DNA from: Pyropia yezoensis
Taxonomy: Eukaryota > Rhodophyta > Bangiophyceae > Bangiales > Bangiaceae
Direction: 5' to 3'
Assembly (NCBI GenBank): GCA_009829735.1
Contig: CM020619.1
Coordinates: 7,430,375 to 7,494,374, forward strand
Length of the DNA stretch: 64,000 bases
The position numbers and the translations under genes are program-made. A model generated the notes under the pieces. It was not told the origin of the DNA and ran no database searches. It was given only the letters and a program-made list of their open reading frames with translations. Of this stretch, positions 28,246-49,455 are shown in pieces (within the stretch, counting starts at the first letter, position 1; the number at the start of each line of letters is the position of its first letter).

Positions 28246-29480
28246 GGCGGGGTGGGGGGGGAGGGGGGGGGCGGGAGGCAAGGCAGCCCGGCCACGGAAA
28301 GGGGCGGGGCGGGCGGCCGCCGGTGCCGCCGCCGCCGCGGCGACACCTTTGCCGCTCGGCTGCTCGCCGACGATGCCACGGGCGCGCGCGGGAAGAAAAG
28401 GGGGGAGCTTGATGCCGTCGGCAGCCGCGGGCCGGTGGATGGACCGCCCGCCCGCCCCCGCGCGCGGCCGACGCCGTAGAGCCACACGCAGGGCGGTGGC
28501 GGCGGTGGATGCCCTTGTCAGCGTCGCCGCTGGAAACGGTGCGCGGCCGGGGGGATGGGCAGCCGCCGGGGGTTCTGTAGGAGCGGGAGCGGCGTAGCGG
28601 GTGAAAGGAGGCCTGGGGAAGAGGCCACGAGGGGTGGGAGGTGGTCGAGGGGGAGGGAAGGGGGGGCGGCTCGTGGGCACGCTAGCCGACCGCGTTGCAC
28701 ACGACGGGCCGGCCCTGCAACAACCGAGCAGACAAGAGAGCTTACACAAGTACGGGCCTTTCTTGACCTGTAGCCCCCCTGAGGGCCCTCAGACGAAAGG
28801 TCCACCAGCTGATACTCGCACGCAAGTCCATCCATTTCCCCACCTACACCTCTTTCACCTTGTTATTGGCGGCACGCCTCCCGCCAGCAATGCGGGTGGC
28901 GGGGGCTCAAGCTTGTCTGTAAACGGGTGCGCGGCGCGTTCGGGTGTCGTGGCGCGCGCCGCCGCACCTCTCGACGGGCACGCGCCGCCGCACCTCTCGA
29001 CGGGCACGCGCGTCGCCAGCCGGCCACCGCGGCATCCTCTGCGCGGTGGCGCGTCTGGCGCCGCGCGGCAGCGGCCCGTACGGCCGTGCGGCGCGCTCCC
29101 CTCAGACGTTGCGCGCGGCTCCACCCGACGCGCTCGTGCCCCGCCGCGCCGCTTGGATCGTGCTCGCGCGGCGCGTGGCCCCCTCTTTGTCCCCCTCCCT
29201 CCGACGTCCCCGCGCTGACCTCACCCCCCACAGCGATTTACCGACTACCATCCGTCTTTCCTCCCCCCTGGGCGGTGGCGGCGGCACCGGCACCGGCACC
29301 GGCCGTAGATCCACCCCGCCTGGTGGCAGCGGCAGCGGCAGCTGCAGCCGCATCGGCGGTGGTAGTGGCAGCGGTGGCGGCGGCAGCGGCGGTGGTGGCA
29401 GCAGGAGCGGCCCCTTGCCTTTGCCGGCTCCCTCCCCCTCTCCCCCGCCCCTCCACCCCCCCCTCATCTCGTTGGCCACG
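28246..29480. promoter_or_regulatory. Shared upstream region of kinase (-) and VHS-GAT gene (+)
   Basis: The two genes diverge from this 1.2 kb segment, so it must hold both promoters. It contains a perfect 26-bp tandem repeat (28955-28980 and 28981-29006, beginning CGCGCCGCCGCACCTCTCGA) and several G/C runs. No TATA-like element stands out. Part of the right side is an open frame continuous with the VHS-GAT gene, so a longer N-terminus using a non-ATG start is possible but not favoured. Confidence 0.5.
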
Positions 29481-32400: not shown

Positions 32401-33509
32401 AGGCGGCGCAGCTGGCGCAGCAGCAGCAGGCGGCACAGCTCGCTCAGCAGCAAGCCTTCCAACAGCACCTCCAGCAGCAGATGGTACAGCAGCAGCCGCA
32501 CCAGCAGCGGCAGATGCCCCAGCAGCAGCAGCCCGTGCCCCAGCAGCAATCCTCGCCGTCGCAGCAGCCGCAGGCGCAGCCGCGGGAGCAGCCGGCGTCC
32601 TCGCCGCCGGTGCAGCGGGCCAGCCCGCAGCACGGCCCTGCCGCAGAGCCGCCGCGGGCGTCGCAGCCGCCGCCGGCCGGCGGCCAGCCGCAGCAAGCCC
32701 CCCCGCCTCCGCCCCGCCCCCCCCCCCCCCCCCCAACAGAGCAGCCGCAGCAGCCGCCGTCGGTGCAGCACCCTACGGGCGTGCCGCCGTCCCCGGGAGG
32801 CCCGCAGCCGCTGCCGCGGCCCGTGGGCGCGTATGGCACCTTCCACCCGGCCACCGCGTACCAGTCGTACAACCCGGCGGCGGCCTACCAGACTGTCAAC
32901 CCCGCCATGTTTGGCCAGCAGCTGCCCATGTACGGCTCGATGGCGTATGGGGGTAACCCGTACGCGTCGGTCGGTGGCGCGGGGGGGGGCGGGGGTGGCG
33001 GCGGCCTCATGCAGCCCCAGCAGCAGCAGCAGCAGCAGCAGCTGCCGGCCTACGCGACGATGAACCCCTACGCCATGGGCAACCCCTACGCGGCGTACAA
33101 CAGCTTCTCCACCGTGTCGTCTGGGCCGCCTGCGGTGCTGCCGCCACCCTTGTCATCAGCGGCGGCGGCGCCGTCGGCGGCGGGCACGCAGGCGGGTCAG
33201 CCCCCGTCGCCGGCGGGCGGGGCGCCGTCAGCGGCGGCGCCGCCCCCCCCCTTTGCGGTGGGGCCCGCCGGCATGGGCGGCTACGCCCAACAGCCGGTGG
33301 CCGCCAACCCCTACGGCCCCTACATGGGGTACCTGCCGGGCCAGCAGCTGCCGCCGCCGCCGCCACCACCGGCAGCGCCGCCGGGCGTGTTTCCCCCGCA
33401 GCAGGGCATGATGGTGGGGGGGCCAATGCAGATGCAGGGCGGCCTGCTGCCGCCGCCGTATGGGGTGGGCGCGCCGGTGCTGCCGCCACCGCCGCCGCCA
33501 CCCGGGTGA
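29481..33509 (+). CDS. VHS-GAT adaptor (TOM1/TOL-like ESCRT-0 type), 1342 aa, copy A
   Basis: Single exon; start chosen at ATG 29481 because the upstream in-frame sequence is low complexity. The VHS domain spans about residues 112-290 (LTTRALRLVTEATAAGVAED, LLDELMRTCPYFYRYVAG, ERVLILIRAWAETLSTMF, GFLIERYNNKRTKVSFPPVP). The GAT-like three-helix domain spans about 355-437 (LDEVEATVSLFENLLESATD to ADRLRAALHVHTEAV). Next come an Ala-rich linker, a highly charged coiled-coil/single-helix region (about 544-694, Lys/Glu/Arg repeats), a clathrin-box-like DLLALLGT, and a DPFALLAERY motif (about 770). A Gln-rich tract follows (about 837-1010) built from iterated Gln-Met-Gln-X-Gln units, then a Pro/Tyr-rich tail with NPYA repeats. 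VHS-GAT proteins bind ubiquitinated cargo on endosomes and recruit clathrin. A paralogue lies at 46867-49455. Confidence 0.9.
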   Translation: MQPPPPPAGPVSRKHHVQAVAGQTFSRFLPRSSSHAAPAGPAAAAPSAGGGGPNGSGLAGESATSASTSADGGALVVAASAPAASSGGSGSLGGGGGGGGGGPRPSDAGALGIRPSELTTRALRLVTEATAAGVAEDVAEARRVALVRVVLGEHGGGDAVVGALRERLRSLEEVPVLNALTLLDELMRTCPYFYRYVAGPKMFRDMWRLVVPNYKDGVKGLRFKKGSADTRSEAGRALATERVLILIRAWAETLSTMFPGRIEPEAGFLIERYNNKRTKVSFPPVPKSELPWVCRVSPGPDVFKKGGRQAGGRGAAAAAGAAAGGAAGTIAGRPPAGSGHAQRSASAPAPPPPSLDEVEATVSLFENLLESATDAEEVKGELHTDLATRCRGMYASMGTLSEGLDESSELSRAVVFADRLRAALHVHTEAVEHGRLTSLAAARASGGGGGGTDGEGGDASGDANVSGDGKVLAATPGEENGSLGAPSVPEPAVAATAAATTAMAAVVAASAVTRSAPSPAAAANSDSVPAITEPTASVAPGFATQPEAERVAERARQQAEQTQQADADAAAQKVRKREAAEASAAQAAKEREAAAERQRNEERLAKAKAKERAKREEREKEAAEAAAAVAAVEKAEAKERAEAKELAKEKERKQKEAEERERERERERGRERESDRDRELEPERAAVVAKKKPKEDRKEDRKTTDEDLLALLGTRAGPTDSKSASRKDKKGKHKKASSGTSTSSNASLDGGSGKDRRKGGKTSASGDPFALLAERYSSTAVGSSTDAVDATAAGLAGATIQQPPAQYMTAPPGMMFGQPYGAYMSGPPMYPMSAVSMQQLQPGQMQQPPLGQMQQLQPCQMQQLQPGPMQQLQSGQMQQPQPGQPQQAGQMQPPQSGGMQLLQPGQMQPQQHGQMQLQQPGQMLQPPQPGQIQPQPPGQMQPGQMQPQQSGEFQPPQSGPLQQQQLAQLAQQQQAAQLAQQQQAAQLAQQQAFQQHLQQQMVQQQPHQQRQMPQQQQPVPQQQSSPSQQPQAQPREQPASSPPVQRASPQHGPAAEPPRASQPPPAGGQPQQAPPPPPRPPPPPPTEQPQQPPSVQHPTGVPPSPGGPQPLPRPVGAYGTFHPATAYQSYNPAAAYQTVNPAMFGQQLPMYGSMAYGGNPYASVGGAGGGGGGGGLMQPQQQQQQQQLPAYATMNPYAMGNPYAAYNSFSTVSSGPPAVLPPPLSSAAAAPSAAGTQAGQPPSPAGGAPSAAAPPPPFAVGPAGMGGYAQQPVAANPYGPYMGYLPGQQLPPPPPPPAAPPGVFPPQQGMMVGGPMQMQGGLLPPPYGVGAPVLPPPPPPPG
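31990..32535 (+). repeat. Gln-Met/Gln-Pro codon repeat array in VHS-GAT copy A
   Basis: Imperfect CAG-ATG-CAG based units of 12-27 bp encode GQMQQLQPGQMQ-type repeats, grading into CAG/CTG-rich GCGCAGCAGCAG units. The corresponding part of the paralogue is much shorter, so the array expanded after duplication. Confidence 0.85.
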
Positions 33510-34980
33510 GGACGGCGGCGGCGCGACCGCGCGTTGGCACTGGCACCGTATTTTTTTTTTTCTGTTCTGTTTTTTGTTCTTCAGTGATGGGGATGCAGGC
33601 TGTCGTGGGGGATCACGCCCGCTAGGTGCGGGTGCTCTTTCTTTGTGTTTCTTGTTTTTTCGGTTTCCCTCGCGCGACCCACCTCTTTGGTACAGCTGAG
33701 GTATCTTTCGTTCACACCTCTTTCGTACAGCGTGGGTCCCTGCTGTCGTCGTTCTTTCACCCTCTACCCCCTTTTTTTTTAAATTCTCTCCACTGCTGCC
33801 TGCGACAGCCGCCTTTATCCCTGCGGTGGGTACGCCTGGTCTGGGTAAGGTGGTCCCGTCCCACGGACGTCGTGTCCCCCTCTTGTTCCCCACGACTGCC
33901 GCCTCCCGTCGGTCGCCCCGCCGCTGCCCAGACCCCCTCGCCCGCCCAAACACCTTGCATACACGCCCAACGAATGGATTGGTGGCCCCCCCTCCCGCTC
34001 GGCCGCCAGTGGCTGATACCCGCGCCTGCAACTCTGCTGTCAACCGTCACCAACCAGACACGCCCCCATCCCCGCCACGAGATCACCCTCCCGGTCCGGA
34101 CCGGCGGCCGTCTGGCCCGTGTCGACCCGTCCCGGTGCCATACAAAACACGGTGGCGAGCGTGCGGCACCACCGCACAACCCCCACTTGCTCGGAACAAC
34201 GATGGCACCACCCCCCACGGACAACGTTCCATTCCGTGCCGTGCCGTAGCGTGCTGTGGCAGCGGCCGGGCATCCATCCCTAAGCTACAGCCCCCCCCCC
34301 CCCCCTCCCCCCCTTATGCTCACGCGGAATCGGGGGGCCGTCATCTCCCCCCCCCCTCTGACCCCCCTCCCCTCGACGCCCTTCCGTCATGGCATCTGCA
34401 TGCACGCCTCGTCGGTGACGCGGCCGCGGCCGGTCGAGCAAAGCCCGGGCAGACGTCCCACCAGCCCGCACCCCACCCACCCCACCAGTGGCCCCACTTT
34501 CTCCCCGCCCTTCACCCCCTTCACCCCCCCCCTCCTCCCCCCCCCCCACCCCCCCACCTGCCGACGCTGGCACACGGCCCCGGCCCGGCCGCCGCCGCCG
34601 CCACCGCCGCCGCCAACCGCCGCCGCCACCGCCCGCACCGCCGCCGTGTCCCGCCGCGGGCCGCAGCGGTCGACGCGGGCCCCTGCGTGCGAGAGGGGGA
34701 GGGAGGGGAGGGGCGGGGGGGGGGGAGACGGCGCCACCCTACCTCCTCGGTGGGTTGGAGCTGCAGGGCTGCCGCGGGTCGTCTGCCAGCCCCCCCCAGA
34801 CCCCCCCCCCCCCCCCACCCCCCTACCCGGCATCCGCCCATTGAAAGCGCGTGGGACACCAGCGGTCAACCCGACACCCCCCGCAACCCACCCTCGCTCC
34901 TCCTGGGGGGCCACCGCCACGGCCACCACCCCCACCCGCGGGCGCCGGCGCCGTCACGCGGCACGCCCCCCGCCGCCACC
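33510..34980. other. Intergenic, 3' region of VHS-GAT A and 5' region of the GRAM gene
   Basis: T-rich runs at 33550-33580 and 33770-33782 may serve 3' end formation. From 34270 to 34930 the + strand is C-rich, with many runs of 7-14 C. The open frames here have low-complexity Pro/Arg composition on every strand and are not credible genes. The segment from 34500 to 34980 is probably the promoter and 5' UTR of the next gene. Confidence 0.5.
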
Positions 34981-35392
34981 ATGGGGAGCGCGTCGCCCCC
35001 CCCGCCCCGCGCCGCCGCCGCCACCACCACCGACCCGATGGCGGCCAAGCTCCACCTCCCCCCCGGCGAGACGATCGCCGCCTCGTGGCCGGCGGCGCTG
35101 GCGCGCCGCGGCGTCCTGCCGCCGCTGCTGCAGGGCCGCCTCGTCCTCACCTCCACCCACCTCCGCTTCCACGCGCGGCTCCTCGGCCGCGTGACGCGGG
35201 TGGCCATCCCCCTGGCGGGGGTGCGGGGGGTGGCCAAGCGGCCGGGACTCCTCCCGGCGGGCGCCATCCGCGTGGTGGTGGTGCCACCACCGCCGGAGGC
35301 GCCGGGGGGGGGGGGGGGCACCGCCAGCAGCGACAGTGGCGGCAGTGGCGGGAGCGGTGACGTCGGTGGCGGCAGCAGCGGCGGTGGCGGCA

Positions 35393-35456
<64 letters not shown>

Positions 35457-38353
35457 AGGTGATGGGGAGGACGACGAGTGGGTGTTTGGGAGCCTCCTCC
35501 ACCGGGAGGCCACCCTGTGCCGCCTCCGCGCCGCTGTCGCTGCCGCCACAACGGCTGCGGGAGACGTTGCCGCCGCGGCGGGGCGGGGTGACCCGACCGC
35601 CGCCCCCACCGCCGCCGCCGCCGCCACCGCCGCCCGCGCGGCAGCCGCCCACGTCAATGGCGCCGCCGCCCCCCCCCCGCCGTGTGCAACGACGGAGGAG
35701 TGCATGGAGCGGGGGCGGGTGCACGAGGTGCTGTCCACCACCTCCCGGGCGGTGGTGGGGGCGGCGGTCACACCCCTGCGGGGGGCGGTGGAGCGGCTGC
35801 TCCCTGCTGGGCTGGGCGGGGGGGCGGGGGGGGGGGGGGGTGGGGCGACGCACCCCGCTGAGGGAGGGGGGTTTGGGGGCGGGGGACGGCGCCACTCGCA
35901 GGGCAGCGGCCGCCACTCAGACGGCGGGGGGCACGGGCCCTTCGAGGGGGGCGCGGGGGACCCGTCGAATACGTCGGCCGCCCCTGTCAATGGCGCCGTC
36001 GCCGCCGTGGCCCCGTGTGCGGCGACGGAGGAGGGCGTGGAGCGGGGGCGGGTGCACGAGGTGCTGTCCACCACCTCCCGGGCGGTGGTGGGAGCGGCCG
36101 TTGCGCCGCTGCGGGGTGCGGTGGAGCGGCTGCTGCCTGCTGGGCTGGGCGGGGGGGCGGGGGGGGGGGTGGGGACGCCCTCCGACGCCGCCACCAGCGG
36201 CGACGGTGACCCGCGGCAGTCGCCGCCGCCGCCGGTCGCCGTGCCCGCCGCTGCCCCGGGGGCGCCGCCGCCGACCTCCGCGGCGACCGAGCCGGGCGGT
36301 GATGCAGAGGGGGCTGTGGGTGCCGCTGCTCTGGCCGACGCGCTGCCGGCGGCAGGCCCACTGGCCACCGCCACGCCTGCTGCCATGCCGCCGCCGGCCA
36401 CCGCCGCGGCCATTCCGGTGGCGACGGAGGCGGTGGGGGCGGCGGCGGCGGCGGAGGATACCCCCTACACCACCCCGGCAGCGTCGACCGACTCGCTGTC
36501 GCGGTCCGACGGCTGCGTCGGCGTGGCGGGGGACACGGACGGCGACCCGCCGGCTGTCTCCTACTCGGCCACGTCCGACACGGACGGCCGTGGGTCGTCG
36601 GCCGCCGTTGCGGGCGGGGGCGACGGCGGCGGCCTCTTTGCGCCCTCTCCGCGGGGCCCCGTGTGGGTGGGCGCCCCCGGTGGGGCCCCCCCCGCGGCCC
36701 CCGCGGCGCCCCTGTCGGCGGGCACTCCCGTGCCGCTCCCCCCCGTGGTGCTGCCCCTGTCGGCCGCCGCGGCGTTTGGCGCCCTCTTTGGGGACCCAGC
36801 CTTCCTCTACACCCTCTACACCAGCCGCGGGCGGTCGTCCCTGGCCATCCCCCCGGACTGGGGGGGGGGCGGGGGGGGGGGGTGCACCCGACACGGGAGG
36901 TGCGGTACACCAAGGCTCTGACCATGCGCATCGGCCCGCCGTCGACGCGGGTGGTGGAGACCCACACCCTGTCGGCGCCACCCGGAGCGGTGCGGGTGGA
37001 CATGGCCATGCACTCCCTGGACGTGCCCTTTGGGGCGGCCTTTCGCATCCGCATGGCATTTACGCTCACCGACGGCAATGAGGGCGGGGGTGGGGGTGGT
37101 AGCGGCAGCGGGGTCGGGGGGGGGGGGCGGCGGCGGCGGCGGGCGGGGGCGGCAACAACGAGGAGGCCCCCGGGGGGGGCTGCTGCACCCTCTCTGCTTT
37201 GGTGGGCGTGACGTTTGTGGCCGCAAAGGTGGGCCGCCTGACGCCCACGGGGCGGATTGAAAAGGGGGCGCTGGCGGGGGCGGGGGAGTCGGCAGCCGCC
37301 CTGCTGGCCGCCGCCGCCACCTGGGTGGCCGACGCTGCCGCCGCGGCGGCGGCCGCGGACGAGGCCGCCGTCGCTCGCCGGGCCGCCCGCCGGTCGGCGC
37401 GGCGCGCCAGGGGTGGCGGCGGTGCCACGGCGGCAGCGGCGGCGGCGGCGACGGCGGCGGCGTCTGCGGCACCGGCGGCCGCACGGCGCCCGCCGCGGGG
37501 TCTCCCGGCGGGGCGGCGGGCGGCGGCAGGGGTGTCAGGTGGTGGGGACGATGGTGGTGGTGGTGGTGGCGGTGGCGATGGTGGTGGTGGTAGGAAGGAC
37601 GTCGACAGGGGTGCCGGCGGCGGTGGGCACGCCGCCAGTGGTGGAGGCGAGGCTGATGGTGAGGGGGGGCGCGACCACCCCGTCGGGGAGGCGCGGGGGG
37701 TGGGGGCGCCTGCAGAGCCCCCGGGGCGGCCGCCCCTGCCACTGCCAGCCGGCTGGGAAGCAGCCGCCGCGGCGGGGGGCGTGTCGCTGGCCCCGCCCGC
37801 CGCGCCCGTCGTGGCTGCTGCGCCCCGGCGGCACGCCCGGACGCGGTCGTCGACCTTTTCGTGGGGGCCCCCTGCGGATGTGCTGGCGGCCGCCGCCGCT
37901 GCCAGCAGCGACGGCGGCAGCGACGGCGGAAGCGGCAGCGGCATGGACTGTGGTGGGGGCTCGCACGGGCGTGGCGGCGGCGGCGGGGTCAGCGGCGGCG
38001 GTGTCGCCGTCCCGTCTGGGTCCCCCCGGCGGGTTACCCGGGCCGCGCGGGCGTGGGCCGCGTCAGGCCTCCCCCCCCGCAACGCTGCCGCCGCCGCTGC
38101 CGCCGCCGCCGCCGCCAACGTCACTGCTACTGCTGCGGCAACAGACCACGGCGGGTGGGCGGTAGCGCCGTCCACCCCGCCGGCGGCGGGGGTGGTGGCC
38201 AAGGCGCCACCGTGGACGCCGCGCCGGGACGTGGCGGCGTTTGTGGCGGGCGTCGGCGTTGGCGTTGCCGCCGTCACGGCCGTTGCCGTCGCCACGGGGG
38301 CTGCAGAGGTGCTGTGGGGGGGGGGCGGTGGGTGTGCGACGTTGGCGGGGTGA
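34981..38353 (+). CDS. GRAM-VASt-TM protein (Lam/GRAMD1/VAD1-like sterol transfer type), frame shifted at two G-runs
   Basis: Starts at ATG 34981. A GRAM domain lies at residues about 45-187: GRLVLTSTHLRFHARLLGRV and AIPLAGVRGVAK, then DDEWVFGSLLHREATLCRLR after an inserted ~55-residue Gly-rich tract encoded by (GGC)n. Low-complexity sequence follows, with a duplicated segment RGRVHEVLSTTSRAVVGAAV. A VASt domain follows, starting FGALFGDPAFLYTLYTSRGR (about 36775). Its continuation (REVRYTKALTMRIGPPSTRV, VPFGAAFRIRMAFTLTD) lies one frame over, and its end (LVGVTFVAAKVGR) one further frame over. The shifts fall at G-runs 36860-36882 and 37116-37127, and each fits one missing G. A C-terminal hydrophobic segment (FVAGVGVGVAAVTAVAVATG, about 38238-38300) is a likely ER membrane anchor. 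The family moves sterols at ER contact sites. I read the shifts as probable homopolymer errors, but a real pseudogene is possible. Confidence 0.75.
35385..35456 (+). repeat. (GGC)n triplet run encoding poly-Gly inside the GRAM domain
   Basis: An almost pure GGC repeat of about 19 units, preceded by interrupted GGC/AGC/GGT units. It separates the two halves of the GRAM domain in the encoded protein. Confidence 0.95.
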
Positions 38354-38386
38354 GGCTGCTGTACACGAAGAGAGAAGAGAGTATGC

Positions 38387-38402
38387 ACGTGGGGGGACCG
38401 GC
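38387..38402. repeat. Left copy of 16-bp direct repeat bracketing the Fanzor gene
   Basis: ACGTGGGGGGACCGGC is identical to 42845-42860 and in the same orientation. It lies 34 bp after the stop of the GRAM-VASt gene and 163 bp beyond the stop of the Fanzor gene. It may mark an element end or a target duplication. Confidence 0.8.
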
Positions 38403-38600
38403 CCCCGGGGAGAAACACTGCGTTAGCAGAGTAACCCCCCTCACACGCACACTGAACATCCGACGAAAACCCGCACGCGGCTCGTCGGAGAGAGGGGCGA
38501 ACCGAGCTCGTGGCACTCGGCGACCGGTGGCTATCGTGCCGTGAGTACCGCGGTGTGGAACCGACTCACGCCACGGAAGTTGCCCCGCCGCCGCCCGCCA
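38403..38600 (-). ncRNA. Candidate Fanzor guide (omega/f) RNA region at the 3' end of the gene
   Basis: TnpB and Fanzor nucleases use a non-coding RNA made from the 3' end of the gene and the adjoining element end. This stretch overlaps the Fanzor 3' end and runs to the direct repeat. It holds a perfect 7-bp hairpin (38460-38466 with 38482-38488), a CTGC-GTTA-GCAG hairpin (about 38418-38429), and a bulged stem at about 38513-38551 pairing ACTC..GGC..GA with TC..GCC..GAGT. Transcription and boundaries are inference; the guide would be templated by sequence just outside the element end. Confidence 0.35.
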
Positions 38601-41600
38601 CCGCCGGCGCACCGTCTCCCGCCCGTGCCGCTCCGGAGAGCTCCGTGGATGCCACCGTGTGCGTGTCCGCCACCACCGCCGCCCGCGCCCCGCCGGCGCC
38701 ACCCGGTCCGACGGCGCCTTCCCTGCCCGCGTCGCCCGTGGCGCCCGCCACCACTGCGGCGCCAGGGGGACGGCCGCCGTCGCCCCCGCCAGCTCGGCCC
38801 GCGGGGGTGGCGCCCGCCGCCTCGCCGTCGTCACCGCCGTCCAGCACCGGCCTTCGCACGCGTTGCGGGCGCACGAACGGGTGGCACGGCAGCTGCCGCA
38901 TCTGCCGCAGCGCCTTCCACCCCATGTTGGCCGCCGCGTTGACGTCGCGGTTGACCAGCCGCCGCGCGCACGCCTGCTCCACGCAGCGCTTGACGCCCCA
39001 CACCCCTGCGGCGTTGGGGGCACGAAACACCACGCCCGCCGGGGGTGGGTGCTTGACCGCCCGCTCTGCCGCCATCTTGGCGCCCTCTGCTCGGCAGGCC
39101 GCCCGCCGCGCGGCGGAGCGCACCGGCTGGGTGCGCTCCCAGCCCGCCGTCGGCGGCGCACGCGGCCACCCCTGCCGGCCACGGCGGCCCCGCCGCCGTC
39201 CACAGATCAGGGTGCCGCGGGGTACGGGCGGCGGCGCCGCTGCCGACGCGTACACAACCGCCAGCTGCTGGCGGCAGCCGGCGCACGCCTGACTCGAGTT
39301 GTGCTCGTCTGCGTCCACCATCCAGCACAGCCGCCGAATGTGGCGGCGGAGCCACGTGGCGCCCCCTCGGGTAGCCGCCTGCCCGACCACCACCACCACC
39401 GCCGAGCGGTTGACGACCCGGCGGAGGCGGCCACCCGTCAGCTCCCGCGCCACGGCCTCGCCCAGCCGCCGCCGTTGGATGACTTGATGCACCCGCGCCT
39501 TGCGCTGGCCGGCCGTCGCCGCGGCGCCCCACACCGCCCTGTACTTTGGCTGGCGGCGTGACTCCATCCACTGGCGGCTGGCCGCCAGCACCGCCGCCGC
39601 GTCGCCCGTCCGCACCGTGTCGTGCGCGGCGACCACCTCGGGGGTCGTCGCCGGCGGCTGCTGGAGCGCGGCCAGCCGCTGCGCCGCTTCCCGCCGATGC
39701 GCCGCCGCCGCCCGCGCCGTCATGCCGTTTCCTGCAGCTTCGGTATAGCGGCCCCTGCTCAGCGTGTACACGGCGCCCGTGGGGGGGGGCGCCCGCCACC
39801 CCCGTGTCGCCCCGACCGCGTCTGCCACGCGCGCCGTCAGGCCGTCCAACGCGGACGCAAACGCGCCGGCGGCGGCCACGTCCTGCTCCGCCGCCGCCGT
39901 CTTGCACACCGCGAACGCGGCGCCGTCGGGCCGCCCGTCTGCCACGCGTGGCTGGAACAAGCCGGCGGCGGCGCGGCGCAGGCATCCGAGTGCTACTTGT
40001 ACGGCCGCGTGACGCGGCACCCGCCACCGGTCGTTCCCGGTGGCCGCCACCAGGCGCTGCGCCGCGGCCCGCAGGCGCCGCACGGCGCCGCGCCGGAGGG
40101 ACGCCGCCGGCCCCCGCGCGGTTCTCGCAGACGGCGGGCGCGCCGGAGGCGCCGGCGCGGCTGTGCCGCCCGCGGCGCCGCCGCGTGCCGGTCCAGTCCT
40201 GGCCGCCTTGCCGCACGGCGGCTGCCGTTGCTCTGCGCCGCCGGGGCCGGCCTTGCGCTTTCTCCGCGCCGGCAAAAGGGGGAGGGCGCCCGGCCCCGCC
40301 CCGGCCGCCGCGGCCGCCGCCGCGGCGCCCGCTGCCGCCGCGTCGGCCGGCGCCAGCGCGGCGGCCCGCCACACCACGCCGTCTAGCGCCAGCGCCGCAC
40401 GGGTGAGCGCGTCCGCCGCCATCAGCCGCGACCGCGCCAGCCGGCGGCGGCGCACGTACGGGCGGTCGCCCCATGCCGCCGCGAACGGCCCAGACGAGAC
40501 CGCCGTCAGGACTGTGGCCTTGCCGGGGTCTGCCGACACCACGGTCAGGGTCTCGACGGCGGCGGCGGAAAAACCCTGCTTCTCCAGCTGCGTGGTGGGG
40601 CTCCCCGCCACCCGCTGCTGCACGCGGGTGCCGTTCGCCTTGCGCGTCGCCGCCGCCACGTCGGCGGCCTCGGCCTCGGCGGCAGTCGCCGGCCGCGACA
40701 GCGTAAAGACCACCCCCTCCCCGTTGGAGCGGAGGTCGGCGCCGGCGGTGCACCGCACGGTCTCCAGCCCCAGGAGTCCCGCAATGGCCGCCGCCCCCCG
40801 CCGACGGACGTTCTCGTACAGCTCGCGGTGTCTGGGCCAGGCGCGCCGGATGAGCGGGCCCAGGCGTGCCTTGGTCACCGTGCCGTACCCGTGCAGGGTG
40901 GCGACCTTGCCAGGCACCAGCGAAAAGGGCTTGTCCACCACCCCCTCCACCTGCACGTTCAGCAGGTACGGGATGTACTGTGCCCACCGGCGCTCGACCG
41001 CGTGCGCCCCGCCCGTAGGGAACAGCGGCGGGGTACCCTGTGCGGGCGCCGGCTGCGCCCGCGCCCGCGCGTCGGCAATCTCCGTCAGCGCGGCCGCACG
41101 CACGTCGGAAGGTAGGGCCTCAAGCTTGGCCGCGTGCGCCGCGTGGGGCGTGTCGATCCCTCGCTCCAGGCAGCTCCTGGCGGCGGCGTAGACGGCGGCG
41201 CGGCGCCGTCCGCGTTGCTCGTCGCCGCAGGCGGGGGCTTCGGCCGCATCCACCACCTTTGCGGCCACCCGCCACGCCAGCCGCCGGGTGGCGACCGCCA
41301 CCGTTCGCGCCGTGTGGGTGACGATGGTGGTCACCACCCCCCGCCACCTCGCGTGGCTGTTGCCGTGAGGCAGGTGGTCGTGGCACGCGGCGTCGAAGGA
41401 CGACGCGAGGGCGTCCATGGCGTTGCGCGTGGCGTCCATCAACGCCGGGTACGACACCAACAGCCGACGCGCAGCAGGCCCGCACAGCGTGTTGTCCCGC
41501 GCCCGCCCGCAGCTGCCGCACGTCACGCCGGCGGGCAGGCTGCCGCCGTGTGCGCCGCGGCAGCAGACCGCGTACGCCACCCAGTTCCAGTACTCGCCCC

Positions 41601-42513
41601 ACTGGGCAGAGCCGGGCAGCGCCGCCGCCCACCCGTCCGCCTTGACGGCGCCAAAGAGTGTGTGCACGGTGTTGAGCCACACCAGGGTCAGCGTGAAGTG
41701 CAGCTGCGTGTGGTGCTCGGCGGTGGCGAGGAACCCGCCGCGCAGGACGGCGTGTGCCGTTCCGTCGGGGGTCGCGGGAAGGGCGCGCAGAACGGCCGCC
41801 ACGGGCACCATCACCGATGACGTCACCGTCGCCCGGCAGGCGTACGGGTCGGACGCGGCGGGGTCCTCCCCGCGGTCGTACGCGTGCGGGTTCTTGTCGC
41901 CGAACAGCGCCGTGGCCGGGCACGTCGCCGCCCCCGTCTTGTGCGACCGCTGGCGGCATCGGGCGCAGGGGCGGCCGCCGGGCGCCGCCCCGCGGCGGTC
42001 CTCCACCTCTACACCGCGCCGCGCCATGCCGCGGGAGGTGCTCCCAATCAGGGACGCCGCCCGCCGCGCCCGCTGCGCCAAAAGACTGTCGTCGTCCAAC
42101 GGGTCGTGCGCGTCCACCCACGCGGTCGCGCCCGCCACCGCCGGGGTGGTGGCCGCCTCCAGGGCGGCGCCCGCCGCCGCCACCGCACCGTCGGTGGTGG
42201 GCGCAACTTCGTGCGGCGCCCCGGCTGCGGCGGCCGCCGCCGCCGTCAGTCCGGCGAGGGCCGCGTCCAGCGCGGCGCCGTCGGGCAGCTGCGGGCGCCG
42301 CGCCCGCGCCTCGCCCACGTGGCGGAGCAGCCCGCGGAGGCGCCGCTGCTTGAGGTGCACGGCGGCCTCCAGCTCGGCCAACTCCCGCGGGTCGGCCTGG
42401 TCGCCCGACGCGGCGCCATCTCCGGGCGGGAGGGCGTCGTCGGCGTCTGCGCGTGGTCCGTGCGGTCCTTCGTCTTGAGGGCCGGCGCCCGGCTGCTCCT
42501 CGTCCGGCTCCAT
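38566..42513 (-). CDS. Fanzor: eukaryotic TnpB-like RNA-guided nuclease, about 1315 aa
   Basis: Single exon; first ATG at 42513 (the frame is open 18 codons further up without an ATG). The split RuvC nuclease is recognisable. RuvC-I is TVVSADPGKATVLTAV (Asp662, the Asp-Pro-Gly form usual in Fanzors). RuvC-II is a strand VVVVVGQAATRGG lacking the usual Glu, followed by WMVDADEHNSSQACAGC with Glu1070 directly before the zinc finger, the alternative Glu position described for Fanzors. RuvC-III is RLVNRDVNAAANMGWKAL (Asp1190). The zinc finger uses C1077/C1080 and C1177/C1182. The N-terminal half has an acidic start, helical Ala/Arg-rich parts and two Cys clusters (CARC at 183, CGSC further on). 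At about 1315 aa it is long for the family because of Ala/Gly/Arg low-complexity inserts. Fanzors are programmable, RNA-guided DNA endonucleases carried by mobile elements. The catalytic residues look intact. No other transposase is adjacent. Confidence 0.85.
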   Translation of the reverse strand: MEPDEEQPGAGPQDEGPHGPRADADDALPPGDGAASGDQADPRELAELEAAVHLKQRRLRGLLRHVGEARARRPQLPDGAALDAALAGLTAAAAAAAGAPHEVAPTTDGAVAAAGAALEAATTPAVAGATAWVDAHDPLDDDSLLAQRARRAASLIGSTSRGMARRGVEVEDRRGAAPGGRPCARCRQRSHKTGAATCPATALFGDKNPHAYDRGEDPAASDPYACRATVTSSVMVPVAAVLRALPATPDGTAHAVLRGGFLATAEHHTQLHFTLTLVWLNTVHTLFGAVKADGWAAALPGSAQWGEYWNWVAYAVCCRGAHGGSLPAGVTCGSCGRARDNTLCGPAARRLLVSYPALMDATRNAMDALASSFDAACHDHLPHGNSHARWRGVVTTIVTHTARTVAVATRRLAWRVAAKVVDAAEAPACGDEQRGRRRAAVYAAARSCLERGIDTPHAAHAAKLEALPSDVRAAALTEIADARARAQPAPAQGTPPLFPTGGAHAVERRWAQYIPYLLNVQVEGVVDKPFSLVPGKVATLHGYGTVTKARLGPLIRRAWPRHRELYENVRRRGAAAIAGLLGLETVRCTAGADLRSNGEGVVFTLSRPATAAEAEAADVAAATRKANGTRVQQRVAGSPTTQLEKQGFSAAAVETLTVVSADPGKATVLTAVSSGPFAAAWGDRPYVRRRRLARSRLMAADALTRAALALDGVVWRAAALAPADAAAAGAAAAAAAAGAGPGALPLLPARRKRKAGPGGAEQRQPPCGKAARTGPARGGAAGGTAAPAPPARPPSARTARGPAASLRRGAVRRLRAAAQRLVAATGNDRWRVPRHAAVQVALGCLRRAAAGLFQPRVADGRPDGAAFAVCKTAAAEQDVAAAGAFASALDGLTARVADAVGATRGWRAPPPTGAVYTLSRGRYTEAAGNGMTARAAAAHRREAAQRLAALQQPPATTPEVVAAHDTVRTGDAAAVLAASRQWMESRRQPKYRAVWGAAATAGQRKARVHQVIQRRRLGEAVARELTGGRLRRVVNRSAVVVVVGQAATRGGATWLRRHIRRLCWMVDADEHNSSQACAGCRQQLAVVYASAAAPPPVPRGTLICGRRRGRRGRQGWPRAPPTAGWERTQPVRSAARRAACRAEGAKMAAERAVKHPPPAGVVFRAPNAAGVWGVKRCVEQACARRLVNRDVNAAANMGWKALRQMRQLPCHPFVRPQRVRRPVLDGGDDGEAAGATPAGRAGGGDGGRPPGAAVVAGATGDAGREGAVGPGGAGGARAAVVADTHTVASTELSGAARAGDGAPAVAGGGGATSVA

Positions 42514-42844
42514 TGCGAGCGCCGCGGACGTCAGGAGCGGGTGGGGGGGACGCGTGCTTCTTGGCACGGGGACGGGCAGCGATCCCGTGGGGGTGGGGCG
42601 AAAAAAAGAGGGAAGAAGGGAGGGGGCGGGGGGTCAGCGTGGTTGGGGGGAACAGCGAAGGGATGGGAGTAGCGATAAGGGGAGGGGGCAGCGATGGGGG
42701 GGGGGGGGGAGCGAGCGGGGGGGGTGCAGCGAGCGGGCAGAGGACAGCAAGGGGGCGGGTGGGAAGAGAGTCGGGGAGGAAGTACAGGGGGTTAGCTGAC
42801 GAGCCACCCAGCGTGAGCCAATGAGAGGCGTGTTTGTTAGCCTA
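42514..42844. other. G-rich upstream region of the Fanzor gene
   Basis: Probable promoter side of the Fanzor gene. It is strongly G-rich on the + strand, with runs up to 15 G and iterated CAGCGA/AGCGAGCGGG motifs at 42640-42760. No other gene is seen. Confidence 0.5.
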
Positions 42845-42860
42845 ACGTGGGGGGACCGGC
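42845..42860. repeat. Right copy of 16-bp direct repeat bracketing the Fanzor gene
   Basis: ACGTGGGGGGACCGGC, identical to 38387-38402. A second related TGGGGGGACCGCGGG follows at 42866-42880, and an inverted relative GCGGTCCCCCA lies at 42914-42924. The right border therefore carries a cluster of the motif. Confidence 0.8.
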
Positions 42861-42991
42861 TATGCTGGGGGGACCGCGGGGGACCCCCCCCAGGGACGCA
42901 ATCTGGCGGGGTTGCGGTCCCCCATGGCCGAATGAGGGTTGATTATTGCTGGGCGCAAAATGTGTAAGTTTTCGCGCTGTCCACCATCTCA

Positions 42992-43093
42992 GCCTTCATA
43001 GCTCAGTTGGGTCTGTAGCGCTCCACAGCTGCGGCAACGAAGAGCGCACGACTGAAGATCGTGAGGCCGCCAGTTCGATCCTGGCTGCAGGCA
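42992..43093 (+). tRNA. trnF-GAA: tRNA-Phe (GAA) with a 29-nt intron in the D-loop
   Basis: Exon 1 is 42992-43011, the intron 43012-43040, exon 2 43041-43093. Spliced length is 73 nt: acceptor GCCTTCA/TGCAGGC (one T.C mismatch, 42996 with 43088), D stem GCTC/GAGC with loop AGTTGGGA, anticodon arm CACGA-CTGAAGA-TCGTG (GAA), variable AGGCC, T arm GCCAG-TTCGATC-CTGGC, discriminator A. The precursor forms a bulge-helix-bulge: outer stem GCTC/GAGC, 4-bp central helix GTTG/CAAC (43006-43009 with 43035-43038), 3-nt bulges GGT and GAA on opposite strands, and an intron hairpin CTGTAGC/GCTGCGG. Cutting after the second base of each bulge removes exactly 43012-43040 and restores a canonical D-loop. Non-canonical D-arm introns of this kind are known from red algal nuclear tRNAs. 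Confidence 0.9.
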
Positions 43094-43772
43094 GATACGT
43101 GTAGCGCATCCCTCGGCATGTGTGCCGTTTGCGTCACACGGGACCCTACGTCTTTTTGTAACTCACGCGGGGTTTCTCAGTCGCCCGGCGGCTCGTCTCG
43201 ACGGACGGTGGGAGATGGCCCGTAGTATAACCGTTCCCAGGAGCGGTGCGCCACCGCCGCTCAAAGGTTTGTCCGCAGCGTCGGGATGCGATGGGGTCCC
43301 AAGAAGCCGCCGCAGCCCCGTCGGAAGACAGCCAGCGGGAAACCGCGATAAGCGACCGCCGCTTGAGGAGTTGCTCTCAATCGGAACGCGGACGAGGACA
43401 GTGACGCTCGGCCAGTGGGGTCATTGCTATATCAGGTCTGAAGGTGGGCGACAGGTTGACATGGTCGGCGATGCTGAGTAGGAGAGCGGGTCTCAACAAG
43501 AACGTCGCGGCATGCACCAACCAGTAGCAACCAAGGGTCACATGAAACAGGTTGCAAAAAGCCCGGTGCAATGCTTCAAAGCAAGCCGTGTGGACACGCG
43601 ACAGAGCGTCCCCACCCTACGCACGGTGCTGCGCTACAGTCATAACTTGCCTGACCCCCGCCCCCTGACCGCCGTGCACGAGCCACAGCGGCTACCCACT
43701 CTGCGCCTAATCCTCCCCCACGTCGTCATCACAGTGGAGGAGCATCAGCGCTGCCATCGACCCCCCCCCACC
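43094..43772. other. Intergenic, no supported gene
   Basis: A TTTTT run at about 43153 may end tRNA-Phe transcription. The right part is the 3' region of the minus-strand peroxiredoxin gene. Short ORFs here have no recognisable content. Confidence 0.5.
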
Positions 43773-44643
43773 TCACATGCTCTCCACAAACGACACCACC
43801 TCCTCCACGTGGCCGTCTACGGTGACGCCAAGCCACTCGCGGGCCACCACCCCCTCGGCGTCAATGACAAAGGTGGAACGGACAACGCCCATAAACTCCT
43901 TGCCAAACTTCTGACGCAGCTGCCACACCCCGTACGCCTCGAGCATCGTCTTGGCCTCGTCCGATGCGAGCGCGAAGTTGAGCCCGTACTTGGCCTTGAA
44001 GGCGTCATGGGACTCGACCGAGTCCCCGCTGACGCCAACCACAACGGCGCCCGCAGCAGCCAGGCGGTCGGCCGCGTCACGGAAGCCCTGCGCCTCAATC
44101 GTGCAGCCCGGGGTGTCGTCGCGCGGGTCTATGGAAGGCATGTGGAAAGAAGCCGGGGGGTGAGGGGGGCGGGGGGGGAGGATGGGAGGGAGCAGGCGGC
44201 CACATGGGGAGGTGCAAGCGTACCATCCACAAACCAGGCGGAACCGCCAGGTCGAGTCAGCACCGGGTGCACGCCATGGACCTCCCTCCCCCCCAAGAAG
44301 AACTGACCGCGGATGCACGGCGCGTTACCAGGAAGCAAGAAACAGAAAAAAAAAACGTACAAAAATAGAGCACCACCTTCTTGCCCCGCAGGTCTGCCAG
44401 GCTCACCTCCCCCGCCCCGTCGGTGGGCAGCGTAAACGGTGGCGCAGGGGCGCCTACCGCCACCGCCATCCGCACAATGCCGGCACCGCCCGCAGCGGCC
44501 ACCCGCGTCGGCGCCACCACCGGCAGGCGCGCGCGGCGGGGCGTTGTGGCGGCAGCAGCGGCGCCGGAGGGCGCCACAAGCGCCGACGCGGCCGCCGGCC
44601 GCGGGACGGTGACCGACGCGGCGGGAGCGGCGACAAACGCCAT
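43773..44643 (-). CDS. PRXQ: Peroxiredoxin Q (BCP family), 2 exons, one-Cys form
   Basis: Exon 1 is 44643-44361 and exon 2 is 44128-43773, giving 212 aa. The donor is GTACGT and the acceptor CATAG; the split codon rebuilds Tyr95, giving KKVVLYFYPRDDTPGCTIEA, the family core. Residues 1 to about 58 (Ala/Val/Arg-rich, MAFVAAPAASVTVP) look like a plastid transit peptide. The mature part has VGAPAPPFTLPTDGAGEVSL, then the peroxidatic Cys103 in TPGC, FRD with its Arg, GVSGDSVESHDAFKAKYGLN, and a C-terminal VRSTFVIDAEGVVAREWLGV. PrxQ reduces peroxides using thioredoxin. The usual resolving Cys five residues after the peroxidatic one is Gln here and no other Cys remains, so this would act by a one-Cys mechanism. 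The start is the ATG that opens the transit-like leader. Confidence 0.93.
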
Positions 44644-45141
44644 CAGAGCAACGGGAGAGGGGGGATTGGGGGGGGGGGGGGTTGGCCTGTGGCGGATGGT
44701 CGTGGTGGGGATCCGTGGGCGGCACAAGCGTGGCGTTGGCGGGCCGGGCGCGCGCAGGCGCGGTTCGACACCAAGAACGCCCTGTGCTCGAGGCGACGTG
44801 ACCTGCGGGATCCCCGAGCTGCAGGGCGCTGTGCCGCGCATCGTGTGCGAACGAATTTCAGAACAAACTTCTCTAATAAGGTACGTACTAGGTACGTACA
44901 AACATTAAGGAAGAGACCTAAAGGAGCTGCACTGCCCTTTATCTCTGCCCCCCGACGCGCCCCCTACCAGCGCACCCCTATTCCATCACCTTCGCCCCCC
45001 GTGCAGAACAGATGGCCAAGGCGGCGGCGCCCGCCAGAGTTTTCATCCCCCCCCCTGGCGGCGCCCGCATCGTCAGCTTCCCCCGCGGGCGGTTGCGGTG
45101 CTGGCGCTGGTGGTGCTGGTGTGGTTGCGGCGGGGGTGGCG
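44644..45141. other. Upstream region of peroxiredoxin Q; GC-rich, no clear gene
   Basis: Contains a GTACGTACTAGGTACGTAC near-palindrome at 44880-44900. An ATG-started frame at 45013 (MAKAAAPARVFIPPPGGARI) runs into the TIR element after about 45 codons. It could be the start of a gene broken by that insertion, but I do not recognise it. Confidence 0.35.
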
Positions 45142-46866: not shown

Positions 46867-49455
46867 TCACTGTGGTGGTGGAGGTGGCGGCGGTTGTCCC
46901 CCATTCATCGCCCCCGGCGGGTAGGGTGGTGGAGGCGGTGGGAGCTGTCCAAACGCGCCGGCGCCCGACACGCCGGCGCCCGCAAAGCTCGAGTACATTG
47001 CATAAGGGTTGCCAGGCGCCGGTGGGGCCCCGGCGGGGGGCCGCCCGGGATAGGGTGGCGGGGCAACGGATGAAGACTGCAGCTGCCGCTGCTGCTGCGT
47101 CTGCTGAGGAGGGTTGGGCAGCCCCCCAGGGGCAACCGCAAAGCTGTTGTACGCCGCCGCCGTTGCGTAAGGGTTGGGCATGCCCGGCGTCGCCGCGTAC
47201 GGGTTGCCATACTGCTGCGTCCGGGGCTGCGGCGGCATCCCGCCGCCGCCGCCACCCGCCCCCGCGTACGGGTTGTTGCCATACGCCACGGAACCATACA
47301 TCTGCATCTGCGTTGCGTACATGGCAGGGTTGACTGACTGGTAGGCTGCAGCTGCGGCTGTTGGGTCCACAGTCTGGTAGGCCGCAGCCGCCGCCGCCGC
47401 CGGGTTGAAGCTCCCATACACACTTGCTTGTTGTGCTGCCATCCCTGGGGCGCCCGCCATCTGCAGCTGCTGCCCCATCTGTGGCTGCATCCCCAGCTGC
47501 TGCATGCCTTGAGGTTGTCCTCGCATTGACTGCTGCGGGTAGTGGCTCATTTGCGGCACGGGCGGGGGCACGTAGGTAGAGTAGGGGTTTGCAAACATCA
47601 TCCCCGGTGCGCCACCCATCTGGGATTGCCCCTGCAGAGACACGTTGCCCATCGTCGCGGTCGTCACGTCAATCGTGTCGGTGGAAGTGGAGGTGGCGGC
47701 CGTGTTGTAACGCTCTGCCAACATCGCAAACGGATCCGCCACGGGGCCGGCCTTGCTGCCGCCGCCGCCCTTGCGGCGGCTCGACGGCTTAGCGTCCTCA
47801 CTGCTGTCCGAGTCGCTGCTGTCACCCTTTTTCTTCTTGGCCTTCTTGTCCCTGCGCGCCGACGACTTACCGGCGCCCTCCGAAGCATCGACCACCACCA
47901 GCATACCCGCCTCCTTCTTGGCCTTGCGCTCCTCCTTTGCCTTTTCCTTCTTCCGCCGCTCCTTCTCCCGTTCCTTTTCCCGTTCCTTTTCCTTGCGCTC
48001 CTTCTCCTTACGCATGGCCTTCTTGTGCGCCGCCTCCCGTTCCCGGCGCTCCTCCTCCTCGTCCACCCCGTAAGGCTGCAGTGGCGGCGGCGGCAGCGGC
48101 CGCGCATCGTAAATGTCATCATCGCTCGACGGGTCGTCCATATCCGAGTCCATGTTGACAACAGGGATGTGGCTAATCGGCGCCAACCGCCCCGTCTCCA
48201 CCGCCTCCCGATGCACCGAGAGCACGTTGCGTAGGCGCTCACCCGTGCGAGATGCCCGAGCCACCTCCCCCTCCTGCTCCATCGATATCGCCAGCTGGTG
48301 CATGTTGTCATAAATGACCTGGCAGCGGGTGGCGAGGTCCGTAAACACGTCGCCCTTGACCTCCTCCGCGCCCGACGCCTTCTCGAGCATGTTCTCAAAC
48401 AGTGTCACCGTGTTCTCTACCTCTGTCAGCGACAAATTGGGTGGCAGGCCCGCGGCGGGCCCCGTCGACGATGACCGCCCGCCTGGCGCCGACGCCGAGC
48501 GGCTGGGCGGGCCACGCCCCCGGGAAGACACGTCCACACTCGTCTGGATGGGGCATACCCAGGGGAGCTCGGACGGGGGCACGGGCGGGAAGGCAATCTT
48601 GGTGCGCTTGTTGTTGTACCGCTCAATGAGGAAGCCCGCGGCCGGGTCAAAGCGCTGGCGAAACATTGTCGACAGCGTCTCGGCCCAGGCACGGATGAGG
48701 ATGAGCACCCGCTCCGCCGCCTGCGTGCGTCCACCCGGGGTGCGGCCGTCAAAGACGCTCTTCTTGAACACTTTGCCCTTCACACTCTCCTTGTAGTCGG
48801 GCACCACAAACCGCCACATGCGACGAAACACCTTCTCCGACGCGACAAAGCGGTAGAAAAAGGGGCACGTGCGCATCAGCTCGTCAAGGAGCGTCAGCGC
48901 GTTGAGCACCGGCACCTCCTCCATGGACTTGAGGCGCTTGCGGATGGCAAACATTACCGCCTGGCCGCCGCCTGGCTCGGCAAGCGCGATGCGCACAAGG
49001 GCGACCCGCTTCTTCTCCGCCACGCTCTCCGCCACCCCCGCCTCGGTGGCCTCGTCCACCAGCACCACGATGCGGGTGACAAACTCCTGGTTCCGCACCA
49101 GCCCGCCGCCGCCGCCCATCGCCGCCGCCTCGGCCGACCGCACGCCGGCGCCATTGGCCGGCGGGATGTAGCCCGTCACGTCAAGGACGCCGCTGCCACC
49201 GCCGCCGCCGCCGCCTACACCAACCCCTCCCCCGCCCCTGCCGCTGGCACCGCCACCACCGCCACCGCCGCTCGCGCCGCCATTGGCCCCGTCCGAAGAC
49301 GATGGAGGGATGTAGGCGGTGGCGGCGCCGCCCGACGCGGTCGACGTGTAGGAGGAGGACGTTGGGATGGGGCGGGAAAAGGTGCTCCCCGCGGCGGTGG
49401 GCGTCGGCTGCAGCCGCCCGCCACCGCCCCCACTTGCAGACGTGGTATACGACAT
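46867..49455 (-). CDS. VHS-GAT adaptor (TOM1/TOL-like), 862 aa, copy B
   Basis: Single exon from ATG 49455. After a Gly/Ser/Tyr-rich N-terminus the VHS domain covers about residues 118-300 (FVTRIVVLVDEATEAGVAES, LLDELMRTCPFFYRFVASEK, ERVLILIRAWAETLSTMFRQ, GFLIERYNNKRTKIAFPPVP). The GAT-like domain covers about 325-410 (LTEVENTVTLFENMLEKASG to RLRNVLSVHREAVETG). Then come an acidic stretch (DMDDPSSDDDIYD), a Lys/Glu/Arg coiled-coil region, a Ser/Asp-rich segment, and the motif DPFAMLAERY shared with copy A. The tail is Gln/Met/Pro-rich with SFNPAAA, YQSVNPAMY and NPYA repeats. Likely an endosomal ubiquitin-cargo adaptor that binds clathrin or AP-type partners through the DPF and NP motifs. Order and wording of motifs match copy A throughout, so the two are paralogues; copy B lacks the long Gln repeat array. 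Confidence 0.9.
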   Translation of the reverse strand: MSYTTSASGGGGGRLQPTPTAAGSTFSRPIPTSSSYTSTASGGAATAYIPPSSSDGANGGASGGGGGGGASGRGGGGVGVGGGGGGGSGVLDVTGYIPPANGAGVRSAEAAAMGGGGGLVRNQEFVTRIVVLVDEATEAGVAESVAEKKRVALVRIALAEPGGGQAVMFAIRKRLKSMEEVPVLNALTLLDELMRTCPFFYRFVASEKVFRRMWRFVVPDYKESVKGKVFKKSVFDGRTPGGRTQAAERVLILIRAWAETLSTMFRQRFDPAAGFLIERYNNKRTKIAFPPVPPSELPWVCPIQTSVDVSSRGRGPPSRSASAPGGRSSSTGPAAGLPPNLSLTEVENTVTLFENMLEKASGAEEVKGDVFTDLATRCQVIYDNMHQLAISMEQEGEVARASRTGERLRNVLSVHREAVETGRLAPISHIPVVNMDSDMDDPSSDDDIYDARPLPPPPLQPYGVDEEEERREREAAHKKAMRKEKERKEKEREKEREKERRKKEKAKEERKAKKEAGMLVVVDASEGAGKSSARRDKKAKKKKGDSSDSDSSEDAKPSSRRKGGGGSKAGPVADPFAMLAERYNTAATSTSTDTIDVTTATMGNVSLQGQSQMGGAPGMMFANPYSTYVPPPVPQMSHYPQQSMRGQPQGMQQLGMQPQMGQQLQMAGAPGMAAQQASVYGSFNPAAAAAAAYQTVDPTAAAAAYQSVNPAMYATQMQMYGSVAYGNNPYAGAGGGGGGMPPQPRTQQYGNPYAATPGMPNPYATAAAYNSFAVAPGGLPNPPQQTQQQRQLQSSSVAPPPYPGRPPAGAPPAPGNPYAMYSSFAGAGVSGAGAFGQLPPPPPPYPPGAMNGGQPPPPPPPQ

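Follow-up and report, generated by a model that had tools for sequence, protein, structure and literature searches.

An unusually large and divergent Fanzor-like gene in the red alga Pyropia yezoensis, perhaps part of a mobile unit

Overview

A 64,000-nucleotide stretch of the genome of the red alga Pyropia yezoensis (contig CM020619.1 of assembly GCA_009829735.1, positions 7,430,375 to 7,494,374; referred to here as the window, whose own numbering is used throughout) carries on its minus strand, at 38566 to 42513, a gene for a protein of 1,315 residues that has the motifs of the Fanzor nucleases. The reading preferred here is that this is a highly divergent and oversized Fanzor-group nuclease which sits in a non-autonomous mobile unit, and a probability of roughly two in three seems about right for that reading taken whole. 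Membership of the Fanzor/TnpB family as such is very likely indeed, and rests on the residues of the catalytic site, on their conservation in homologues and on the register in which the zinc ribbon aligns with known relatives. Published work is cited by PMC number. No published description of this gene was found among the entries listed in a search of the literature on Fanzor/TnpB and red algae, most subscription papers and supplements lying outside the scope of that search.

The gene and its Fanzor fingerprint

The open reading frame spans 38566 to 42567 on the minus strand, and from the ATG at 42513, the same start methionine as in the homologue P0001, it runs intact to a TGA stop. That it is coding follows from the homologues, at least six, found for it. 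Its features are these:

38566 to 42513, minus strand: Fanzor-like protein of 1,315 residues, with no internal stop and no intron needed
40528 to 40530, minus strand: RuvC-I Asp662 (DPG), kept in P0001 to P0005
39304 to 39306, minus strand: RuvC-II Glu1070, six residues before the first CxxC, the alternative Glu of Fanzors, kept in P0002 to P0006
39274 to 39285, minus strand: first zinc-ribbon knuckle, Cys1077/Cys1080
38986 to 39273, minus strand: stretch between the knuckles, residues 1081 to 1176, which holds an insertion
38968 to 38985, minus strand: second zinc-ribbon knuckle, Cys1177/Cys1182 (CX4C)
38944 to 38946, minus strand: RuvC-III Asp1190 (NRD), with RD in P0003, P0004 and P0006 (IRD in the last)
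41920 to 41967, minus strand: N-terminal Cys/His cluster CX2CX4HX6C, residues 183 to 198, kept in P0001, P0002 and P0003

The published catalytic triad is D-E-D, and a first-pass annotation of this DNA, made from the letters alone, had placed it at D662 (in DPG), E1070 and D1190 (in NRD) with the Glu beside the zinc finger; each residue is where that annotation put it. In PMC10711439 the molecular fingerprint of Fanzors is given as DPG at RuvC-I together with a catalytic Glu six residues ahead of the zinc finger, a pair reported there in fewer than 1% of TnpB-family homologues. Here E1070 lies in EHNSSQACAGC, exactly six residues ahead of C1077xxC1080, and all five homologues that cover the site have the Glu, just as all five that cover RuvC-I (of the six, P0001 to P0006) have the DPG. 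The pattern of [TS][TS]xx followed by a C4 zinc finger and, after 5 to 50 residues, RD is likewise present, as SSQAC..C and CVEQACARRLVNRD, with the C-terminal motif reading CVEQAC-ARRLVN-RD and ending at D1190. Binding of zinc by Cys1077, Cys1080, Cys1177 and Cys1182 is predicted, and judged from sequence the D662/E1070/D1190 triad is probably catalytically competent.

The homologues, at least six of them (P0001 to P0006, 47 to 92% identical to the query), came from searches by shared five-residue words, each of which scored the 7,968 to 7,996 candidates with most shared words, a procedure for which distant Fanzors, including that of Cyanidioschyzon, are beyond reach. P0001 is 92% identical over query residues 1 to 716 and is without the C-terminal half, and its tail resembles a sequencing adapter; P0002, P0004 and P0003 are 62%, 52% and 47% identical, and P0006, an annotated frame of 412 residues without the N-terminal half, is 82% identical over 403 residues and matches only query residues 811 to 1213. 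RD is found in three of the five homologues that reach the zinc ribbon (P0003, P0004 and P0006); P0002 diverges before it and the gene model of P0005 stops just short. The query, P0003 and P0004 show the whole pattern (DPG, E-x6-CxxC and RD), and P0002 and P0005 join them in having the DPG and E-x6-CxxC pair. The combined pattern, the expressions for which were composed after the motif had been seen, did not arise once when the query protein was shuffled 20,000 times.

P0005 (I4F81_012934) and P0006 are themselves hypothetical proteins of Pyropia yezoensis, on different contigs, whose stated lengths are 8.2 kb and 43.6 Mb respectively, and nearest to different homologues. The annotated P0005 is without several segments found in P0003 and P0004, and these are probably introns predicted within GC-rich coding sequence, not true deletions. 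Scans of viral contigs and of bacterial and archaeal genome contigs gave no relatives of the Fanzor-like protein, and phages and plasmids searched by tblastn with P0004 gave none either. Among the homologues found the lineage is so far confined to apparent bladed red algae.

An oversized protein with a split zinc ribbon

With the Fanzor1 proteins SpuFz1, GtFz1 and PpFz1 the protein shares DPG, the Glu placed six residues ahead of the zinc ribbon, [TS][TS]xxC, RD, a eukaryotic host and large size. It differs from them in length, since Fanzor1 proteins mostly have 600 to 700 residues (PMC11423790) against 1,315 here, in the 408 residues between the RuvC Asp and Glu, in a zinc ribbon that an insertion interrupts and that closes with CX4C, and in scores that fall below profile cut-offs. 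The long Asp-to-Glu distance recurs in P0002 (412), P0003 (449) and P0004 (410); it is 215 in P0005, where segments appear to have been spliced out of the gene model. PpFz1 has a RuvC insertion of its own, the FRI, of about 100 residues (PMC11423790). The two knuckles of the zinc ribbon are separated by 96 residues, and the stretch with the CX2CX4HX6C cluster is missing from the P0005 model, while P0004 and P0006 begin further along. The best classification for the gene is in a new lineage of oversized Fanzors from bladed red algae, whose marks are a length roughly double that of other Fanzors, a RuvC Asp-to-Glu distance of 408 to 449, a divided zinc ribbon and an N-terminal Cys/His cluster.

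Profile comparisons recover the family piecemeal. PF07282, the TnpB/Cas12f zinc ribbon, matches the full-length protein with an expectation value (E) of 2.9, but it matches the 201-residue C-terminal segment alone with E 0.0058 (17.2 bits), no other Pfam family being listed for the query, and it matches four of the five members of the C-terminal alignment; each of three other Pfam families matches a single member, the best with E 0.076. When the 75-residue insertion in the zinc ribbon is omitted, PF07282 matches all three segments (E 9.4e-5, 7.7e-4 and 3.5e-3) and is again the sole family listed, spanning profile positions 18 to 60 of 60, and one hand-jumbled control segment gave no PF07282 match. 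For the hhalign comparison, again with the insertion omitted, four segments of TnpB-family proteins were taken from PDB matches: L79, LaTranC and two proteins annotated as transposases or OrfB. It gives a probability of 87% and E 4e-6, and places E1070 opposite the Glu of L79. L79 (PDB 9b0l), which we take to be a mimivirus protein of Fanzor2-like type, agrees with the query in zinc-ribbon register and Glu position and has DPG in the printed match, and differs in being a chain of 520 residues.

A number of results pull the other way. The full-length protein has no Pfam or NCBIfam family at cut-off, and against the PDB it has no phmmer match and, by profile search, a single unrelated one (E 2.9); the C-terminal segments have no match in PDB or NCBIfam. 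Even with the insertion omitted the best PF07282 score, 22.9 bits, stays below the curated cut-off of 26.3, which is a threshold of recognition and not a defining residue, and with the insertion kept the hhalign probability of the unedited segment is 24%. AlphaFold models from six sequences have a predicted local distance difference test score of 38.7 for the query (1,184 of its 1,315 residues) and 34.8 for P0004, too low for either model to serve as evidence on a RuvC/WED/REC fold. Finally the spacing from the Asp to [TS][TS], 410 residues, is outside the D-X(125,275)-[TS][TS] of Bao and Jurka (PMC3627910), although the later fingerprint of DPG and alternative Glu, in the available text of PMC10711439, sets no such spacing. 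The identification as Fanzor therefore stands on the fingerprint, the conservation in homologues and PF07282 in register, and falls short of curated cut-offs; the profile check that had been proposed for it yielded nothing at cut-off for the whole protein and a significant E-value, still below cut-off, for the zinc-ribbon segment. Because full-length searches return nothing at cut-off, surveys with curated profiles may miss this lineage.

Boundaries of the unit

The repeats around the gene are as follows:

38387 to 38402, plus strand: 16-bp direct repeat, left copy, on the 3' side of the gene
42845 to 42860, plus strand: 16-bp direct repeat, right copy, on the 5' side of the gene
38382 to 38386, plus strand: TATGC, outer 5-bp direct repeat, left
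42861 to 42865, plus strand: TATGC, outer 5-bp direct repeat, right
42866 to 42876, plus strand: the core TGGGGGGACCG of the repeat in a third exact copy, beyond the right boundary

The two copies of the 16-mer are identical, as first annotated, and are the only ones in the window even when up to two mismatches are allowed. The further copies of the motif announced for the right end come down to its 11-bp core TGGGGGGACCG, which has three exact occurrences in the window, at 38390, 42848 and 42866. TATGC, which the first-pass annotation did not mention, stands directly before the left 16-mer and directly after the right one, and neither it nor GCATA occurs again on either strand of 37001 to 44500, with 41 in the whole window. 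By itself the 16-mer is weak evidence in DNA so rich in GC, since shuffles yield such repeats: an exact non-trivial 16-bp direct repeat arose in 11 of 100 shuffles of 37000 to 44500 and in 16 of 100 of 33000 to 44500. The real sequence has two such pairs in the shorter interval (equalled in 5 of 100 shuffles) and three in the longer (in none of 100), the others being 39916/42271, within the gene, and 35184/40002, all in open frames. One exact match to the 16-mer was found in viral contigs.

The third core copy lies just outside the right TATGC, so that TATGC-ACG-TGGGGGGACCG on the left has a counterpart, TATGC-TGGGGGGACCG, beyond the right boundary; none of 500 shuffles gave as good a match. 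The arrangement can be read in two ways, as a 16-bp duplication of a tandem pair or as a TATGC core with the 16-mer as an arm. Taken together the 16-bp repeats and TATGC suggest, at the level of sequence, a mobile unit of 4.5 kb, and on balance the gene probably does lie in a mobile element with these boundaries. Neither a second copy of the unit nor an empty site was seen, with no genome-wide search to draw on. Two other kinds of end were considered: terminal inverted repeats, as in DDE transposons, are rejected, the best inverted end match being 8 bp (as good in 78 of 300 shuffles within the 16-mers and in 103 of 300 with them included), and a direct match of the inner ends that scores 18 (as good in 26 of 300) was not adopted.

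The annotation had also stated that no companion transposase is present, and this is borne out: Pfam shows neither a recombinase nor a transposase in the main frame, and no family at all (at E 0.1) in ten further frames of at least 150 residues in the unit. Its suggestion of IS605/IS607-type mobility fares less well. A bounded unit with 16-bp and TATGC direct repeats and no terminal inverted repeat is plausible, but nothing points to those families in particular; direct repeats alone do not mark them and the unit has no TnpA (HUH or serine recombinase), and so that reading was dropped. Many TnpB elements are also without TnpA (PMC3627910), so its absence is compatible with a non-autonomous IS200/IS605 or IS607 element; Fanzor2 is tied in the same paper to IS607-type serine recombinases, of which none was seen in the unit. 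Direct-repeat ends of the Crypton kind, or a target duplication of 16 bp, fit at least as well. The Fanzor1 element CMe-1A of Cyanidioschyzon merolae (PMC3627910), compared by its description only, is likewise red-algal, without terminal inverted repeats and of no known transposon class, and differs in having about 150 copies of an element of about 3 kb.

Alternatives to the mobile unit, and how it might have moved

The gene could instead be a resident and immobile one, domesticated or a relic, flanked by repeats that are chance or local G-rich duplications. The frequency of 16-bp repeats in this DNA and the small number of homologues (at least six) would suit this, but TATGC at both outer sides with no other in 7.5 kb would not, and neither would the two Pyropia yezoensis proteins on different contigs, each nearest to a different homologue and one of them (P0006) a partial match. 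We regard an immobile gene as possible but doubtful.

Within the preferred reading of a mobile unit, the 16-bp repeat may be a target-site duplication, made when the element landed in a tandem repeat, short and imperfect (TATGCACGTGGGGGGACCGGC / TATGCTGGGGGGACCGCG), the element being perhaps Helitron2-like or some other non-autonomous one with long variable duplications. TATGCACGTGGGGGGACCG on the left does align with TATGCTGGGGGGACCG outside the right end with one 3-base gap, at the shuffle frequency given for the blocks; terminal inverted repeats are lacking, and many Chlamydomonas Fanzor1 insertions of Helitron2 have target-site duplications of about 7 to 19 bp (PMC3627910). The duplicated bases would, however, have to coincide precisely with that portion of the tandem unit which the two TATGC copies enclose, and the proposal is a tentative one.

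Equally tentative is a non-autonomous Crypton-like element with TATGC as recombination core and the 16-mer as terminal arm, moved by a tyrosine recombinase supplied in trans. In its favour, TATGC adjoins both 16-mers and has no further occurrence nearby. The terminal direct repeat of 4 to 6 bp by which Cryptons are recognised is present, as TATGC at 38382 and 42861; CryptonS elements have terminal direct repeats of 5 or 6 bp, mostly TATGG (PMC3212892), and the Fanzor1 subfamily MCi-2A has a partial Crypton recombinase (PMC3627910). Unlike CryptonS, the unit has 16-bp direct repeats inside the 5-bp ones, and Cryptons are described, in the portion of PMC3212892 available, as without long direct repeats; the 11-bp copy outside the right end must then be a resemblance in the target. 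No tyrosine recombinase was found in the frames of the unit or among the ten long frames of the window that were scanned, which leaves room only for a non-autonomous form.

Far less probable than any of these is that the protein is not a Fanzor but an unrelated zinc-finger protein with a chance fingerprint in GC-rich coding sequence, for although no curated family is reached at cut-off, the shuffles, the conservation of the motif residues down to 47% identity and the in-register PF07282 and hhalign matches all speak against it.

Candidate omega-RNA and a possible mechanism

Fanzor guides are read from the flank that adjoins the gene at its 3' end. Should the 16-mer be the limit of the unit, the guide here would be the minus-strand DNA left of 38387, beginning GCATACTCTCTTC. 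Fanzors are described as RNA-guided DNA endonucleases whose omega-RNA comes from the end region of the transposon (PMC10432273), and by homology the source of an omega-RNA here would be the gene's 3' end together with the adjoining flank:

38403 to 38700, minus strand: candidate omega-RNA region, conjectured from its position and covering the end of the gene with the 3' flank

This region folds better than all of 200 shuffles (z -2.96), but it is almost half coding and GC-rich, and the fold of the 179-nucleotide 3' flank taken alone is not unusual (z -1.14; as good in 24 of 200 shuffles).

By homology again, the D662/E1070/D1190 triad and the zinc ribbon would cut DNA at the site chosen by the omega-RNA. 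The unit of about 4.5 kb, with no transposase of its own, would be moved in trans by another enzyme, and cutting of empty sites by the nuclease may favour the retention or copying of the element. Were the 16-mer a target duplication, the first 16 bases of the guide would also match the other junction of the element, with a risk of self-cutting, and this consideration mildly favours the TATGC reading. The most specific version, which we think rather unlikely, is a separate Fanzor class confined to bladed red algae, roughly double the normal size, with split zinc ribbon and large RuvC insertion, in a TATGC-bounded Crypton-like unit whose guide is read from the flank and which homes into empty TATGC sites.

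Neighbouring sequence

The unit had been placed between a cellular gene and tRNA-Phe. The left neighbour is a frame at 37199 to 38353 with no Pfam family, preceded by a frame at 33826 to 36921 whose match to GRAM is weak, at 21.4 bits where the cut-off is 23.6, and the two may be one gene. The right neighbour is a tRNA matched by Rfam at 43011 to 43093 (39.2 bits) and missed by ARAGORN. By eye it belongs to a tRNA-Phe(GAA)-like gene at 42992 to 43093 on the plus strand, in which GCCTTCATAGCTCAGTTGG, resembling a tRNA 5' half, immediately precedes the Rfam match, so that a short intron may interrupt its D loop. Beyond it is an AhpC/TSA peroxiredoxin frame (43773 to 44318, minus strand), whose N-terminal part, by eye, is apparently in another frame past an intron (44257 to 44901).

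Elsewhere in the window are a Gypsy-type retroelement frame (22 to 3822, plus strand) with reverse transcriptase, RNase H and integrase and a weak chromodomain match below cut-off, and a Tc5/pogo-like transposase frame (14911 to 16599, minus strand) with HTH_Tnp_Tc5 and DDE_1. Frames at 46867 to 49455 (minus strand) and 28944 to 33509 (plus strand) match the GAT domain, and the first matches VHS too, in every case below cut-off; they are possibly related trafficking genes. From 55246 to the window end at 64000 runs a C-rich satellite with units of about 334 bp, some 25 copies and a strong GC skew.

Significance

If the protein is a working Fanzor, then the family reaches well past what curated profiles detect, and the gene offers a natural test of large insertions in the RuvC domain and the zinc ribbon of an RNA-guided nuclease. 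Bladed red algae would then also be a seaweed group suited to studying the spread of Fanzor-driven elements by way of empty and filled sites. Should the separate class in a Crypton-like unit prove true, movement in the style of tyrosine recombinases would be joined to RNA-guided cutting. Overall, as far as sequence can tell, the known range of Fanzor enzymes appears to be widened by an unusually large and very divergent relative in a nori-type red alga.

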